DNA from: Nitrospinae bacterium RIFCSPLOWO2_12_FULL_45_22
GTDB taxonomy: Bacteria; 2-12-FULL-45-22
Direction of reading: 5' to 3'
Assembly: GCA_001803565.1 (NCBI GenBank)
Contig: MHDQ01000308.1
Span: forward strand, 1-12,805
DNA: 12,805 bases
The notes under the pieces are model-generated. The model searched no databases and was not told the DNA's origin. It saw only the letters and a program-made list of their open reading frames with translations. Shown one piece after another: positions 2,528 through 11,409 of the stretch; within the stretch, counting starts at the first letter, position 1, and every line of letters starts with the position of its first letter. The translations under genes were made by a program, and so were the position numbers.

Positions 2528-2535
2528 AGGAGGAG
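2528..2535 (+). promoter_or_regulatory. Strong ribosome binding site of the molybdoenzyme
   Basis: AGGAGGAG lies six bases before the ATG at 2542. It selects this ATG, which gives a complete Tat signal, over any downstream start. Confidence 0.75.
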
Positions 2536-2541
2536 AGAAAG

Positions 2542-5418
2542 ATGGAGAAAAAGGACAATGGCTTTACCCGACGCGATTTTATCAAAGGCGCCAGTTTTGG
2601 TGTACTTACCTTATCGCTTGGTACCCTGCGCTTCAAAGGAGGAGAAGTCTTTGCCCAAGAGCCCCTCAAACCGTATCCCTATCGCACCTGGGAAGACCTG
2701 TACAAAAAGCAATGGACCTGGGACAAAGTAGCTAAAGTTACTCACCCTAGAAACTGTTGGTACCAGGCCCATTGCTCCTGGGATGCCTTCATAAAGAATG
2801 GCATTATAGTCCGGGAAGAGCAAACCGCTGATTATCCCCAGACCCGGCCTGAGCTATCAGATTTTAACCCCCGGGGCTGTCAGAAAGGGGCCTGTTATAG
2901 TGCCCGGATGTATGACCCTACCCGTATTAAGTATCCGTTAAAAAGGGTAGGGGAGCGGGGTGAAGGGAAATGGAAAAGGTTATCGTGGGATGAGGCCCTT
3001 ACCGAGATAGCCGATACCATGATAGATATTATCGCTAAAGAAGGGCCCGATACCTTTCTCTATGATGTAGGTACCAATCTAAGCCTGGGACCTCAAGGGT
3101 TAGGTCTGTTTAGGCTCTGCACCTTACTCGACTCGGGCGTCCTGGATTGTAACCCAGAGATCGGGGATGATCATCAAGGCTGGGCCGTGACCAGTGGTTC
3201 TATGATTGGTTGCGGTTCAGCAGATAATTGGTTTTACTCAGATATCGTCCTGATCTGGGCTGGTAACCCCTCTTATACGGGTATGCCATATTCTCATTTC
3301 TTATGGGAAGCCCGCTATAATGGCACCCGGGTCATCGGTATCAGTCCGGATTATAATGCGAGTGTTATTCATTGTGACCAATGGATCCCTATTAATATTG
3401 GTACAGATGCGGCTTTGGCCATGGGCATGGCCCAGGTTATAGTGAAAGAAGGACTATATAATAAAGAATTTATCAAAGAGCAGACCGATATGCCTTTCCT
3501 GGTAAGGGATGATACCAAACAGTTCCTTAGGGAGAAAGACCTTAAAGAGAATGGGCGGGATGATCTCTTCTATATATTTGACCTCAAGAGCCAGGGCATA
3601 AAAGAACCTCCCAGAGCTACCCTGACCCTGGGAGACTTAGACCCTGCCCTGGAAGGGAGTTTTGAGGTAGAGACCATCCAGGGTAAGGTCAAGGTACGCC
3701 CGGCATTTGAGTTCTTAAAGGATAAACTGAAGGATTATTCCTTAGATAGGGTTTCTCAAATAACCGGTATAAACCCCACCATTATTGAAAGCCTGGCCCG
3801 GGATATAGCCAAGGCCCGAACCGTTACTAACGTGACTAATTCTTGTATATCTAAATTCTATCACGGTGACCTGATCGAACGGACCCAGATCCTTGTGCTG
3901 GCCCTCTGTGGTCATTTTGGCAAGAAAGGTAGTGGGTTCAATGCCTTCCCCATGCTGATAGACGATACCAATTTCCGCCTGGCCTTTGCCCCACCCCTGC
4001 CTTTCAAAGAGGCACTGGCGGCCTTTGAAAAATCTTTTGCTGAACAAGTCAAAGACCTAAAGCAGGCAGACTATACCGATGAGATGCTCTCTTATGAATT
4101 TGGACGCAGGCTGGAAAAGACCGGCATAACCGTCTCCAATACCCTGTTTTGGTATGTACATGGTGGTTTGAATGAGCTTTCTGGCCGCTCCAAGGAATGG
4201 GATAAATACTTGAAGCGTGATGTAGATGAGTATGTAAAAGAGTCTCTGGAAAAAGGCTGGCAAAATGTATTCCCTGCTCCAGGCAAAGAGCCCCGCATAT
4301 TATTCGAGTGCGGCGGGAATGTTATCCGGCGGGTACGGGGTTACACGGCCTTGCTCAAGACCCTCTGGCCCAAACTCCATTTGATAGTAACCCTTGACTT
4401 CCGGATGGGGGCGACGGGTCTCCATTCCGATTATGTCCTCCCAGCCGCAGGGTATTATGAAAAGGACGATTTTGCCGGTTGGGTCGGTCCCTATCAGCCT
4501 TTCTTCCAGGTTACGACCAGGGCGGTAGAACCCTTGCATGAATCAAAATCAGAATGGGAGATCCACTGTCTGCTGGCCAAGAAGATCCAGGAAAGGGCTA
4601 AGCAAAGGAATATCCTCACCTTTAAAGATAAGCAAGGCAAAGAGAGGCGATTCGATAATCTCTATGATATTCTGACCTATGGCAGGCATTATACAGAGAA
4701 GGATGAAGAGAAGGTTTGTCGGGACTCCCTGGCCCTGTCCCCTTGCTTTAAAGGTGACTGGAAACACCTGAAAGAAAAGGGGTGGGTTAAATGGGAAGAC
4801 ATTGGCAAGGGCTTCTTCGGTATCGGTAATGCTACCGATATCAAACCCGATGAGCCTATTGTCCCTTATACCTGGCATACAGATAAGAAGGTCCCCTGGC
4901 CTACCCTTAGTCGGCGGATGCAGTTCTACATAGACCAGGATTTTTATCTGGAGTTAGGAGAGGAATTACCTATCCATAAAGACCCTCCTATCAGTGGTGG
5001 TAATTATCCCCTTACGGTTACCGGTGGGCATACCCGCTGGAGTATCCATTCCATGTGGCGCGATGAGGCCCATATGCTCCGGCTCCAGCGTGGTCAACCG
5101 GTTATGTATATGAGTGTAGCCGATGCCCAGAAGAGGGGGATAAAGGATGGGGAAATAGTCCTGGTAAAGAACGATATTGATTCTTTCGAGATAATGGCTA
5201 AGGTAGCCCCGGCTATTCGTCCGGGCCAGGTGGTCATCTACCATGCCTGGGAACAGTATCAATTTAAGGGGCATAAACTCTTCCAGAACCTGATGCCGAG
5301 TCCCATAAAACCCACTGAGTTAGCCGGTGGTTACTTTCATCTGGGACCCTTCTTTGGCCAACTCAGCCCGGGCCAGAGTGACCGAGATACCAGGGTTGAA
5401 GTAACCCGGATCGCCTAG
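2542..5418 (+). CDS. Tat-exported molybdopterin oxidoreductase, type II DMSO reductase family catalytic subunit
   Basis: This 958-residue protein is a bis-MGD molybdenum (or tungsten) enzyme. It opens with a Tat signal (RRDFIKG, residues 10-16, hydrophobic stretch to ~30, cleavage probable after VFA at 38). Iron-sulfur ligands are His68, Cys72, Cys78 and Cys113. The His-led set and the 34 residues between the last two cysteines match NarG-type enzymes, but Cys72-Cys78 is CX5C where CX3C is usual. EIGDD (206-210) may carry the Asp that ligates Mo in this group. EARYNGTRVIGISPDYN (256-272) and GTDAALAMGMAQVI, plus the C-terminal cofactor domain from ~822 (GGHTRWSIHSMW, later PSPIKPTELAGGYFHLG), most resemble ethylbenzene and dimethylsulfide dehydrogenase alpha subunits. 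Those act with beta, gamma and chaperone proteins; none is encoded here. AGGAGGAG at 2528-2535 fixes the start. Substrate and direction of reaction are unknown. Confidence 0.9.
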   Translation: MEKKDNGFTRRDFIKGASFGVLTLSLGTLRFKGGEVFAQEPLKPYPYRTWEDLYKKQWTWDKVAKVTHPRNCWYQAHCSWDAFIKNGIIVREEQTADYPQTRPELSDFNPRGCQKGACYSARMYDPTRIKYPLKRVGERGEGKWKRLSWDEALTEIADTMIDIIAKEGPDTFLYDVGTNLSLGPQGLGLFRLCTLLDSGVLDCNPEIGDDHQGWAVTSGSMIGCGSADNWFYSDIVLIWAGNPSYTGMPYSHFLWEARYNGTRVIGISPDYNASVIHCDQWIPINIGTDAALAMGMAQVIVKEGLYNKEFIKEQTDMPFLVRDDTKQFLREKDLKENGRDDLFYIFDLKSQGIKEPPRATLTLGDLDPALEGSFEVETIQGKVKVRPAFEFLKDKLKDYSLDRVSQITGINPTIIESLARDIAKARTVTNVTNSCISKFYHGDLIERTQILVLALCGHFGKKGSGFNAFPMLIDDTNFRLAFAPPLPFKEALAAFEKSFAEQVKDLKQADYTDEMLSYEFGRRLEKTGITVSNTLFWYVHGGLNELSGRSKEWDKYLKRDVDEYVKESLEKGWQNVFPAPGKEPRILFECGGNVIRRVRGYTALLKTLWPKLHLIVTLDFRMGATGLHSDYVLPAAGYYEKDDFAGWVGPYQPFFQVTTRAVEPLHESKSEWEIHCLLAKKIQERAKQRNILTFKDKQGKERRFDNLYDILTYGRHYTEKDEEKVCRDSLALSPCFKGDWKHLKEKGWVKWEDIGKGFFGIGNATDIKPDEPIVPYTWHTDKKVPWPTLSRRMQFYIDQDFYLELGEELPIHKDPPISGGNYPLTVTGGHTRWSIHSMWRDEAHMLRLQRGQPVMYMSVADAQKRGIKDGEIVLVKNDIDSFEIMAKVAPAIRPGQVVIYHAWEQYQFKGHKLFQNLMPSPIKPTELAGGYFHLGPFFGQLSPGQSDRDTRVEVTRIA

Positions 5419-5517: not shown

Positions 5518-6792
5518 ATGAGTAATAAAAAAGCGCCGATGGAACATGCACGGTTATTGCCGGTAGGAGAAAAGGGTGGGGCACTTAAACATGAAAAATT
5601 TACCCCAGAGGTACAGACCCGGAGGCGGGCACGGGCAGATAAACCCTTTTATCCCAGGGATATTTATTTTAATACCCAGGCATCAAAGGATGGCATAAGG
5701 CATTTTGCCAATGGCCTGGGTGATTTAAATCCTTTATTTCGGGAGGAAGAATATGCCAAGAAGACCAAGTATGCCAGCATCATAGCACCCCCCTGCTATC
5801 TCTACACTATCCGGTGGTTGTCTCCTGGTGGTGGCGGGACTGGTATCCATGGCTGGTATTCCGGGGGTGAATGGGAATGGTATCGGCCGATCTTTGCCGG
5901 AGATGAATATACGGTGGTTTGCGTGCTACGGGACCTGGTGGAGAAACAAGGCAAGATGGGCGGTGGGAAGACCTGGATTGACTATAGTGAAGTTATCTAT
6001 GTAAACCAGAGGCATGAGATCGTAGGCAAGGAACTGGGCTGGGCGGTAATGGGTGAGCGCGAGGCCTCGGGCTCGGCCGGCAAATACCGGGGTACCCCTA
6101 AGCCAGAATATTCCCGGGACGATTGGATGAGAATCCTGGATTTATATAATAAAGAAGAGCTAAGGGGCCCTAAGCCACGCTATTGGGAAGATGTTCAGGT
6201 GGGTGACAAGCTGGGGCCTATGCTCAAAGGACCGTTGAGTGTCCGCGATGAGGTAGGCTGGCTGATGGGTGCCGGTTCACCCTTCTTCCGGGCCCATAAG
6301 ATAGAATACGAGTGGGAAAGGAGACATCCCCATACCTTGGAGTATGTTGAGGAGACCGGAGAAAGGGATGTCCCTGAGCTGGTCCATATATTTGATGCCT
6401 TTGCCCGTACTATAGGCGTGGAGCGGGCTTATGATTATGGCTGTCAGAGAATGAGCTGGCTGGGCAATCTTTACACTAACTGGATGGGAGACGACGCTTT
6501 CTTGTGGAAGATGCGTGGTGACCTGAGGGTCTTCAATCAGATGGGTGATATTACTACCTTTGAAGGGAAAGTAATCAAGAAATATATCGAGGATGGAAGG
6601 TGTTGTGTAGATATAGAGGCCTGGGGTAAAAACCAGAGAGATGAATGGTCTATGCGGCCTAACCCGGCGACTGTTATACTTCCCTCAAGAGAATACGGTC
6701 CCGTTGTCTATCCTAATCCCTCGGTTAAGCTGATGAAGGAAGCCGAAGAGGCAAGGCCTTTAGATGAGCTGATCAAAGAAGGAATAATCTAG
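5518..6792 (+). CDS. Double-hotdog MaoC / FAS1-like acyl dehydratase family protein
   Basis: This 424-residue cytoplasmic-looking protein has two hotdog halves. The N-terminal half (about 45-180) is a FAS1-like / MaoC-N dehydratase domain, seen in HFANGLGDLNPLFREEEYA (62-80) and the later EWYRPIFAGDEYTV. The C-terminal half (about 220-390) begins with YWEDVQVGDKLGP, a common MaoC opening, and ends with the strand segment DLRVFNQMGDITTFEGKV. Family members hydrate enoyl-CoA or dehydrate hydroxyacyl-CoA using a D-x-N-P-x-H signature. Here the first half has DLNPLF (no His) and the second GAGSPFFRAH (no Asp-Asn), so the classic Asp/His pair is not evident. A 40-residue charged N-terminal extension precedes the fold. 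The gene starts 99 bp after the molybdoenzyme on the same strand with no clear terminator between, so co-expression is likely. The domain call is good; activity is uncertain. Confidence 0.8.
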   Translation: MSNKKAPMEHARLLPVGEKGGALKHEKFTPEVQTRRRARADKPFYPRDIYFNTQASKDGIRHFANGLGDLNPLFREEEYAKKTKYASIIAPPCYLYTIRWLSPGGGGTGIHGWYSGGEWEWYRPIFAGDEYTVVCVLRDLVEKQGKMGGGKTWIDYSEVIYVNQRHEIVGKELGWAVMGEREASGSAGKYRGTPKPEYSRDDWMRILDLYNKEELRGPKPRYWEDVQVGDKLGPMLKGPLSVRDEVGWLMGAGSPFFRAHKIEYEWERRHPHTLEYVEETGERDVPELVHIFDAFARTIGVERAYDYGCQRMSWLGNLYTNWMGDDAFLWKMRGDLRVFNQMGDITTFEGKVIKKYIEDGRCCVDIEAWGKNQRDEWSMRPNPATVILPSREYGPVVYPNPSVKLMKEAEEARPLDELIKEGII

Positions 6793-9424: not shown

Positions 9425-9965
9425 TATTTCCTTTCTCCCTTTTTATCTTTTTGACCTTTTTCAGGGATTCTATATCGGCCTTATCTTGTTTTCGGCCAAT
9501 GAGCTTCTTAACCTGAATCAGGTCTCTCAAAGAAATTACCGGAATAGGTAGGTATTCTGTACCCATAATATCCCGGTCCCGATAGGCGGTATCAAAATCA
9601 ATGGGATTCTCCAGTAATATATCTATTTGATAGTAAGGGATAAGGGTTTTATAAAAGGAGAAAACTGCCATATGTTTTTCTTCTTGCCACTTTTTCCTAA
9701 TCTCTGGATCAGTAAGGTCATTAGGGTCAACCGGGGCTTTTGTGCTATAGCCTAAAAGGGTGAGTGCCTCGATCAGCTTGGTAATATTAGCCGGAGAAAG
9801 ATCAACCATAAGGTCTAGATCAGCAGTCATGCGGGGGATACCATGGAGGTTGACGGCAATCCCGCCGATGACCAAGTAACGTACTCCCCTAGCATTCAAT
9901 TGGGAAAATACCTCTTCATAGTACAATATATGGCTCCTTATTAATATCTCATTCTCTCCTTCCAT
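9417..9965 (-). CDS. Nucleotidyltransferase-fold protein (AbiEii/MNT-like)
   Basis: From ATG 9965 the product is 182 residues. It shows the pol-beta-type nucleotidyltransferase core: YLVIGGIAVNLHG (30-42) with the GG turn, DLDLMV with acidic pair Asp49/Asp51, and a third acid Asp115 in YQIDILLEN. The C-terminal DLIQVKKLIGRKQDKADIESL (148-168) is typical of the DUF6036/AbiEii-like group, some of which are toxins of type IV-like modules that transfer a nucleotide to RNA or protein. The frame is open further to 10082, but the longer form would overlap the FAD gene and a palindrome, and an AAGG box precedes ATG 9965, so the shorter start is better. It leads a same-strand unit with the 87-residue protein. 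Fold is well supported; toxin activity is not shown. Confidence 0.8.
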   Translation of the reverse strand: MEGENEILIRSHILYYEEVFSQLNARGVRYLVIGGIAVNLHGIPRMTADLDLMVDLSPANITKLIEALTLLGYSTKAPVDPNDLTDPEIRKKWQEEKHMAVFSFYKTLIPYYQIDILLENPIDFDTAYRDRDIMGTEYLPIPVISLRDLIQVKKLIGRKQDKADIESLKKVKKIKREKGNNA

Positions 9966-10001
9966 TTTGCCTTGGAAATAGCCTAATTTGTTTGCTAAAT
10001 A

Positions 10002-10019
10002 GCACGGATAAATTCGTGC
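10002..10019. repeat. Short intergenic palindrome
   Basis: The 18-base sequence GCACGGATAAATTCGTGC forms a near-perfect hairpin (seven of eight pairs). It lies in the 64-bp gap between the FAD protein gene and the nucleotidyltransferase gene. No T-run follows on the coding strand, so it may be a small dispersed repeat, like the palindromes at 2407-2448, and not a terminator. Confidence 0.45.
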
Positions 10020-10029
10020 CTGCAATATT

Positions 10030-11409
10030 TTAATGTGTTGTGGCGCCGATAGGAGTAACGCCGATAATACCATCGGCGGCAATTATGCCGGTAATAGCAG
10101 CATTGATAATATCCCGGCTGAGTCCTGCCCCATCTCCTGCCAGATAAAGCCCTTTAATCTTGCTCCCCAGGGTCTTATCGGTAATGATCCGTAAGGCGGA
10201 GAATTTTATCTCCGGGGCATAGAGCAAAGTCGAGCCCGAAGCAACTCCCGGAATGACTTTATCCAACATATCCAGCCCTTCAATAATATCAGTAACGATG
10301 CGGTGCGGTAAGGCCATAGAGATATCCCCAGGCGTAACGACCCGCAGTGTAGGCCGTACATAACTATGGTCTATACGGTTCCAGGTAGAGCGACGACCCT
10401 GCTTCAAATCCCCTAATCGCTGGATGATAGGTGCCCCGCCACCAATAGTATAAGCCAGATGTGAGATAGAATGACCATAAGCGCTGGTATCTTCTAAAGG
10501 CTCTGTAAGGTCAACCTTTACCAGGAAGGCGAAGTTGGTGTTCTCCGAGTGCTGAAAATGTAAGGCATGGCCATTGACCCCGGTGCCATTAGCGCCATAG
10601 GTCTCGCGGATAACAAATCCACAAGGGTTAGTACAAAAAGTCCTTACCAGGTCATCATAAGTAGGGGTCCGGAGCCTAAACTTAGGGTCCCAGTTGACTT
10701 GTACCGCCTCATCATAACAGACTGCTGGCACCTCTACCCGCACGCCGACATCAATGGGCTCATGTCTGGTAGGCAACTGGTATTTGTGGGCTAATTGAGC
10801 CAGCCAGGAAGACCCGGCCCGGCCCGGGGCAAGTATAACGCTGTCCGCTTCAATCTCTACATTACCCAGGCACACCCCTTTACAGCGATTATTTTGGACA
10901 ATAATGTCCTCCACTCTACTTTGCAAAATGAATTGAACACCTTTATTTATCAAGCTTTCTTTAAACTGATGGATCAGGCTGGGTAAGCGATCAGAACCTA
11001 TATGCCTCTGCCGGGCCGGGATAAATTCTATCCCGCAGGAGGCCGCGCGACGTAGCAAGGGTGCAGGGTCAGATTGATTAGCTGGTGGGGCGCCGAATTC
11101 TACAAAGACCCTATCTACTTGATCTATCAAGGCTTCGGCTGCTTCCAGGGTGATAAATTCTGTGAGGTCTCCACCAATCTTGGGGTGCAGATTGAGTTTC
11201 CCGTCCGACATCCCACCAGCACCCCCCACACCCTCTATTATGCCGCAAGAGGGGCATTTGATACAGCGATCATGGGAAGGGCAGTGGCGGTCATAAATAT
11301 CTTTACCCTTTTCTATAACCGTAACCTCGGCTTTGCCCGCCAGCCTCCAGGCCGCAAATAGGCCCGCAGGCCCCGCCCCAACGATTATTCCCTTTTTCCT
11401 TCTCTTCAT
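10030..11409 (-). CDS. FAD-dependent dehydrogenase of the COG2509 type
   Basis: This 459-residue flavoprotein has an N-terminal Rossmann motif IIVGAGPAGLFAAWRL (8-23) with the ribose-binding Glu33, and a C-terminal FAD motif LYLAGDGAGLSRDIINAAITG (421-441). Between them, four cysteines (43, 49, 52, 55 in CPSHDRCIKCPSC) precede GVGGAGGMSDGKLN (60-73); this cysteine cluster is a hallmark of the uncharacterised COG2509 FAD dehydrogenases and could hold a metal or redox disulfide. No signal peptide or membrane helix is seen. The start ATG overlaps the purM stop as ATGA (11406-11409), so the two are translationally coupled. No reaction has been established for this family to my knowledge; the purM link suggests only co-expression. 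Confidence 0.88.
   Translation of the reverse strand: MKRRKKGIIVGAGPAGLFAAWRLAGKAEVTVIEKGKDIYDRHCPSHDRCIKCPSCGIIEGVGGAGGMSDGKLNLHPKIGGDLTEFITLEAAEALIDQVDRVFVEFGAPPANQSDPAPLLRRAASCGIEFIPARQRHIGSDRLPSLIHQFKESLINKGVQFILQSRVEDIIVQNNRCKGVCLGNVEIEADSVILAPGRAGSSWLAQLAHKYQLPTRHEPIDVGVRVEVPAVCYDEAVQVNWDPKFRLRTPTYDDLVRTFCTNPCGFVIRETYGANGTGVNGHALHFQHSENTNFAFLVKVDLTEPLEDTSAYGHSISHLAYTIGGGAPIIQRLGDLKQGRRSTWNRIDHSYVRPTLRVVTPGDISMALPHRIVTDIIEGLDMLDKVIPGVASGSTLLYAPEIKFSALRIITDKTLGSKIKGLYLAGDGAGLSRDIINAAITGIIAADGIIGVTPIGATTH

Follow-up and report, generated by a model that had tools for sequence, protein, structure and literature searches.

The locus considered here raises the question of which electron-transfer subunits, if any, serve a catalytic (alpha) subunit of the type II DMSO reductase family whose gene stands alone. 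The gene lies in a 12,805 nt stretch of DNA (the window) from Nitrospinae bacterium RIFCSPLOWO2_12_FULL_45_22, which is the entire contig C308 of a metagenome-assembled genome (MAG) of 3.67 Mb (321 contigs, 85% complete), so that merely 2.5 kb are available upstream of the alpha gene. A previous reading of the sequence (the original prediction) described a Tat-tagged alpha subunit beside an acyl dehydratase-like gene, saw no genes for beta, gamma or chaperone proteins in the 12.8 kb, and proposed an orphan enzyme that either works alone, as acetylene hydratase does, or uses an unlinked electron carrier.

Features of the alpha subunit

The alpha gene is an intact ORF with an ATG start that encodes 958 aa, is preceded by a Shine-Dalgarno-like sequence (AGGAGGAG), and begins with the Tat motif TRRDFIKG followed by a hydrophobic stretch, as is characteristic of a Tat export signal (Table 1). 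Pfam domains Molybdopterin (aa 128-681) and Molydop_binding (aa 824-921) were detected, and the top solved structure is EbdA (2ivf_A), matched over the full length with an E value of 2e-206. The type II alpha profile TIGR03479 also matches over the full length, and while the score of 958 bits is below the curated cut-off of 984.75, this is uninformative because the AhyA-like alpha of Desulfosudis oleivorans (921 bits) likewise falls under it. The NCBIfam equivalog for ethylbenzene dehydrogenase (EBDH) sensu stricto, NF042978, scores 738 bits against a cut-off of 2000 bits.

Compared to EbdABC (2ivf), the window alpha belongs to the same full-length fold family and shares the Mo-binding Asp, the equivalent of Lys450, the CX5C arrangement of FS0 ligands and the Trp following Cys86, but it is only 39% identical, has no ebdABCD operon, and carries T178 at the position of EbdA His192, leaving no active-site His there. 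The equivalent of Lys450 acts as hydrogen-bond partner of the Mo-Asp (PMC6153880). Since His192 is not conserved, ethylbenzene itself is not predicted as the substrate; the active-site His is also absent in steroid C25 dehydrogenase (S25DH; PMC6153880), and the combination of a type II alpha, a Tat signal and no active-site His is shared with S25DH1-4 of Sterolibacterium denitrificans (PMC6016249, PMC6153880).

Table 1. Features of the alpha locus in the window (C308) and of the gamma gene on contig C151
Feature	Position	Strand	Basis or remarks
Shine-Dalgarno-like AGGAGGAG ahead of alpha start	2528..2535	+	Sequence; rated a strong RBS
Alpha (catalytic, Mo-bisMGD) subunit, EBDH/S25DH-branch type II DMSO reductase family hydroxylase (predicted)	2542..5418	+	Profiles, structure matches, tree
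Tat signal peptide (MEKKDNGFTRRDFIKG...VFAQ)	2542..2658	+	Sequence; aligned with EbdA Tat region
FS0 [4Fe-4S] ligands His68, Cys72, Cys78, Cys113 (CX5C, CWYQAHC)	2743..2880	+	Correspond to EbdA H82, C86, C92, C127
Asp209, Mo ligand (EbdA Asp223)	3166..3168	+	EbdA alignment; Asp in 116/116 aligned alphas
Lys438 (EbdA Lys450), Mo-Asp hydrogen-bond partner	3853..3855	+	Lys in 112/116 aligned alphas
Double-hotdog MaoC/FAS1-dehydratase-like protein, probable acyl-CoA hydratase-type enzyme	5518..6792	+	Profiles; 99 bp 3' of alpha
EB_dh-type gamma on C151 (L065)	9762-10442		Profile match; follows beta after six bases

Phylogenetic placement

In an IQ-TREE phylogeny of 37 alphas, with EbdA, an AhyA-like alpha, chlorate reductase and a haloarchaeal type II alpha as references, the window alpha falls inside a clade of 22 with 100/100 support, and this clade is sister (93/99) to EbdA plus the AhyA-like alpha of Desulfosudis oleivorans. 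Relatives from Azoarcus sp. Aa7 and Steroidobacteraceae MAGs are found in the same large clade as the window alpha; chlorate reductase and the haloarchaeal type II alpha fall outside the hydroxylase clade. The spacing of the first two FS0 cysteines was observed to be a clean clade marker in an alignment of 116 alphas: the large clade that includes the window alpha has CX5C without exception (65 assessable members), as does EbdA, whereas the spacing is CX4C in the AhyA-like clade and mostly CX3C in the remaining alphas. A search of a plasmid collection returned no close homologue of the alpha, only chlorate reductase and haloarchaeal relatives.

Two clustered systems provide useful comparisons. 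The alkane C2-methylene hydroxylase (AhyABC) type of Desulfosudis oleivorans (L142) represents the sister hydroxylase branch and uses the same families of beta, gamma and chaperone proteins, but its alpha is 42% identical, has the CX4C spacing, and is encoded in a cluster with gamma, beta and chaperone genes, whereas the window alpha is unlinked. The chlorate reductase ClrABDC of an Alicycliphilus plasmid (L165) likewise combines a type II alpha with a beta-gamma-chaperone set; it differs in being a reductase (37% identity) outside the hydroxylase clade, encoded in a compact operon beside cld.

Judged by its ligands and clade, the window alpha is a member of the oxygen-independent C-H hydroxylase branch. 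Members of this branch use water to hydroxylate unactivated C-H bonds of ethylbenzene, p-cymene and sterol side chains, and probably also of n-alkanes (PMC8840923, PMC6016249, PMC7411048, PMC7803848). Most likely, the enzyme would place water-derived oxygen on hydrocarbon-type molecules without O2.

Gene context in the window

Among the other genes of the 12.8 kb window, neither the ORF list nor Pfam profiles revealed a beta, gamma or TorD-like gene. Two further features were observed upstream of the alpha. A palindrome, CGCAGGCTAAAGCCTGCG, lies about 95 bp before the alpha start (2431-2448) and is dispersed in the genome, with 35 copies at no more than one mismatch (reversed control, 0). Between a NUDIX-like gene and the alpha is a thioesterase-like (4HBT/DUF4442-like) fragment on the minus strand, at about 1985-2290, with a broken frame.

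The gene downstream of the alpha specifies a double-hotdog protein (Table 1) for which profile searches returned (R)-specific enoyl-CoA hydratases and MaoC dehydratases (5cpg, E 1e-10; 5i7n). Its AlphaFold model gave Foldseek matches to double-hotdog MaoC dehydratases/hydratases, which, given the pLDDT of 55, are taken solely as being in line with the sequence profile. In the first half of the protein, Phe takes the place of the catalytic His in GDxNPLH, a motif of the PhaJ/hydratase-2 family. The linkage of hotdog and alpha genes is not conserved. Three other hotdog relatives occur in the genome, none of them near an alpha of the window type on its own contig, and in the orthologous locus of a sister genome (L074) an alpha/beta hydrolase gene lies downstream of the alpha in place of the hotdog gene. 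Elsewhere, hotdog relatives were seldom found near alphas, the cases being L079, L137 and L126, the last with a separation of about 9 kb. A metabolic link between the two proteins, in which the hydroxylated product is oxidized as an acyl-CoA, is plausible. The original prediction was thus accurate in its description of the locus, that is, a Tat-tagged alpha on the EBDH side of the family, an acyl dehydratase-like neighbor, and no partner gene within the window.

Partner genes elsewhere in the genome

The genome carries four alphas of the window type on four contigs, C308 (the window), C273 (64%), C124 (59%) and C96 (46%), the last interrupted by an assembly gap (Ns). The sole beta above the TIGR03478 cut-off was found on contig C151 (8778-9743; 523 bits); its nearest solved structure is EbdB, and all the Cys-rich cluster motifs of EbdB are kept. 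It is followed almost immediately by an EB_dh-type gamma gene (Table 1). No alpha was found on C151, where the neighbors of the pair are hrcA-like, purA-like and acyl-CoA dehydrogenase genes. Among the chaperones scanned, the only one passing the TIGR03482 cut-off is encoded just upstream of the C273 alpha. A four-cluster beta, a haem-b gamma and a chaperone are therefore all encoded in the genome but unlinked to the window alpha (C151, C273). The possibility that C151 is a contaminant was rejected, as in composition it resembles the window (GC 0.470 vs. 0.471 in the window; tetranucleotide r 0.951) more than the remaining contigs in the comparison do.

On C96 (L040) the fourth alpha is followed by a 2-hydroxyglutaryl-CoA dehydratase D/benzoyl-CoA reductase-like gene, and a DUF1329 gene is present on the same contig. 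Orphan alphas can also adjoin housekeeping genes, such as mutS2-like on C273 and ligA-like on C124, and in a deltaproteobacterial MAG an orphan alpha lies directly beside a ribosomal protein operon (L077, 10001-22844).

The haem b site of the C151 gamma may be altered because Met205 replaces the residue that is Lys201 in EbdC and that we take to be the haem-ligand Lys of the 2ivf structure. Among 30 other gammas aligned, this position is Lys in 26 and Arg in three, with one not covered, and a second position, Met194 in the C151 gamma, is Trp in 30/30. Haem ligation by Lys and Met has been described (PMC8840923).

A published parallel is the cholesterol-degrading bacterium Sterolibacterium denitrificans, which has eight alphas and fewer beta-gamma pairs, and in which alpha1, alpha2 and alpha3 were each active with beta3gamma3 and the chaperone (PMC6016249). 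Alphas exceed beta-gamma pairs in both organisms, and in S. denitrificans different alphas draw on the same pairs (PMC6016249). Unlike the S25DH genes, the beta-gamma pair described here has no adjoining alpha, and the four alphas are spread over four contigs.

Alpha and beta genes in related loci

Of 74 related loci that were fetched, 28 extended 8 kb or more beyond the alpha in each direction; a beta was close by in 18 of these and absent in 10. Alphas usually outnumber betas in 13 related genomes, with alpha:beta counts that include 18:1, 15:4, 12:4, 10:5, 8:3 and 6:1 when type II-like betas under 300 bits are left out and some partial alpha matches are included. In several loci a single beta accompanies a tandem row of alphas, as in L078 (gamma-beta-chaperone-alpha-alpha-alpha-alpha), and single betas adjoin alphas of different deep clades (L102, L121, L146). 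Beta-linked alphas are intermixed throughout the clade of the window alpha. The betas of related loci were extracted with tblastn for beta trees, but the branches of these trees were too weakly supported for the C151 beta to be assigned to any single alpha clade.

Orphan status in the strict sense, as originally proposed, gives way on both counts: many homologues have a beta nearby, and the genome itself encodes a beta-gamma pair of the matching type. The suggestion of an unlinked electron carrier came close, the carrier being, on our reading, an ordinary EBDH-type beta-gamma pair.

Proposed mechanism and alternative explanations

Our preferred interpretation, to which we assign a probability of about 0.77, is that the window gene specifies the alpha subunit of a periplasmic, oxygen-independent Mo hydroxylase of the EBDH/S25DH branch that uses the unlinked beta-gamma pair of C151 in common with the other three alphas. 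We infer that the alpha is assembled and Tat-exported with this pair, and that it hydroxylates a hydrophobic substrate with water. The C151 beta and gamma would assemble with each of the four alphas and be exported together with them, and the assembly chaperone would be supplied from the gene beside the second alpha (C273). In the predicted reaction, Mo(VI)=O would abstract the hydrogen of an unactivated C-H bond in an alkyl-, isoprenoid- or steroid-type substrate, hydroxyl rebound would yield the alcohol, and water would refill the Mo site. Two electrons would leave via FS0 to beta FS1-FS4 and then to the gamma haem b, such that a single shared electron-transfer module would serve several scattered catalytic subunits.

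The isolation of the alpha could instead be an artefact, its own beta-gamma genes having been lost in the unassembled 15% of the MAG. In favor of this are the 321 contigs and a contig that begins 2.5 kb upstream of the alpha, and further beta-gamma copies could be missing because the MAG is about 85% complete. We consider it improbable as the explanation, since the 7.4 kb downstream of the alpha is covered, the first gene on the upstream side reads in the opposite direction, and no beta or gamma was detected in the 10 kb before and the 4.6 kb after the orthologue L074. Orphan alphas also occur inside 23 kb stretches of other genomes, and they are not merely an assembly artefact because in the closed chromosome CP070734 four of 10 alpha matches (one a fragment) are 124-408 kb from the nearest beta.

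It is also improbable that the alpha acts without a beta, either as a non-redox, acetylene hydratase-like enzyme or by passing electrons to an unrelated soluble carrier. The window contig has no partner gene, and in the nearest relative genome no beta was detected alongside the two orthologous alphas, but that genome is just 68% complete. Against this explanation, the whole clade is mixed with beta-linked alphas, and 12 of the 13 related genomes with such alphas carry a type II beta, nine of them over the cut-off. Preliminary S25DH constructs of alpha alone gave no soluble or active protein (PMC6016249). The comparison to acetylene hydratase itself is weak and partial, as 2e7z (727 aa) aligns only with aa 113-312 and scores 91.8 bits, compared to 690.8 for EbdA, and the original idea of an enzyme that works alone in this manner was discarded. 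Given the alpha and beta counts, the clade, and the precedent of S. denitrificans, a shared beta-gamma pair is much likelier than an enzyme that acts by itself or without redox chemistry.

Contig C4 (L044, 3262-12929) encodes a divergent type II system, in which an alpha of 1161 aa is accompanied by beta-like, EB_dh-like and TorD-like genes, two of each. Two beta/gamma-like pairs are therefore present that might serve the window alpha in place of the C151 pair, but we regard this as very unlikely and rejected the C4 betas as partners: they score 255 and 246 bits with TIGR03478, far below the cut-off, lie beside their own alpha, and are set apart from the EBDH-type betas by fully supported branches in the beta trees. 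Finally, a decaying or misplaced, functionless gene copy would account for the lack of operon partners, but is scarcely credible for an intact frame of 958 codons with a good ribosome-binding site, every ligand kept, and an intact orthologue, 73% identical, in another family of its order.

Implications

The apparent mystery of this locus mostly dissolves into a known but under-appreciated modular arrangement. Annotation locus by locus would label the window alpha a standalone molybdoenzyme. Whether the system is fully dispersed, with scattered single alphas and one alpha-less beta-gamma pair carrying a Lys to Met change at the haem, is a tentative proposal that we would sooner doubt than assert; if true, substrate range would grow by the addition of alphas alone. 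Within the hydroxylase branch, orphan alphas are common in several phyla, and the most satisfactory view is that they are interchangeable catalytic subunits which plug into a shared electron-transfer module. On this view, alpha genes without operon context should be kept in annotation, and counts of beta subunits underestimate the number of anaerobic C-H hydroxylases. The analysis also places a predicted capacity for oxygen-independent hydroxylation of hydrocarbons or isoprenoids in a poorly sampled lineage, for which the closest relative sequenced is a MAG from groundwater.
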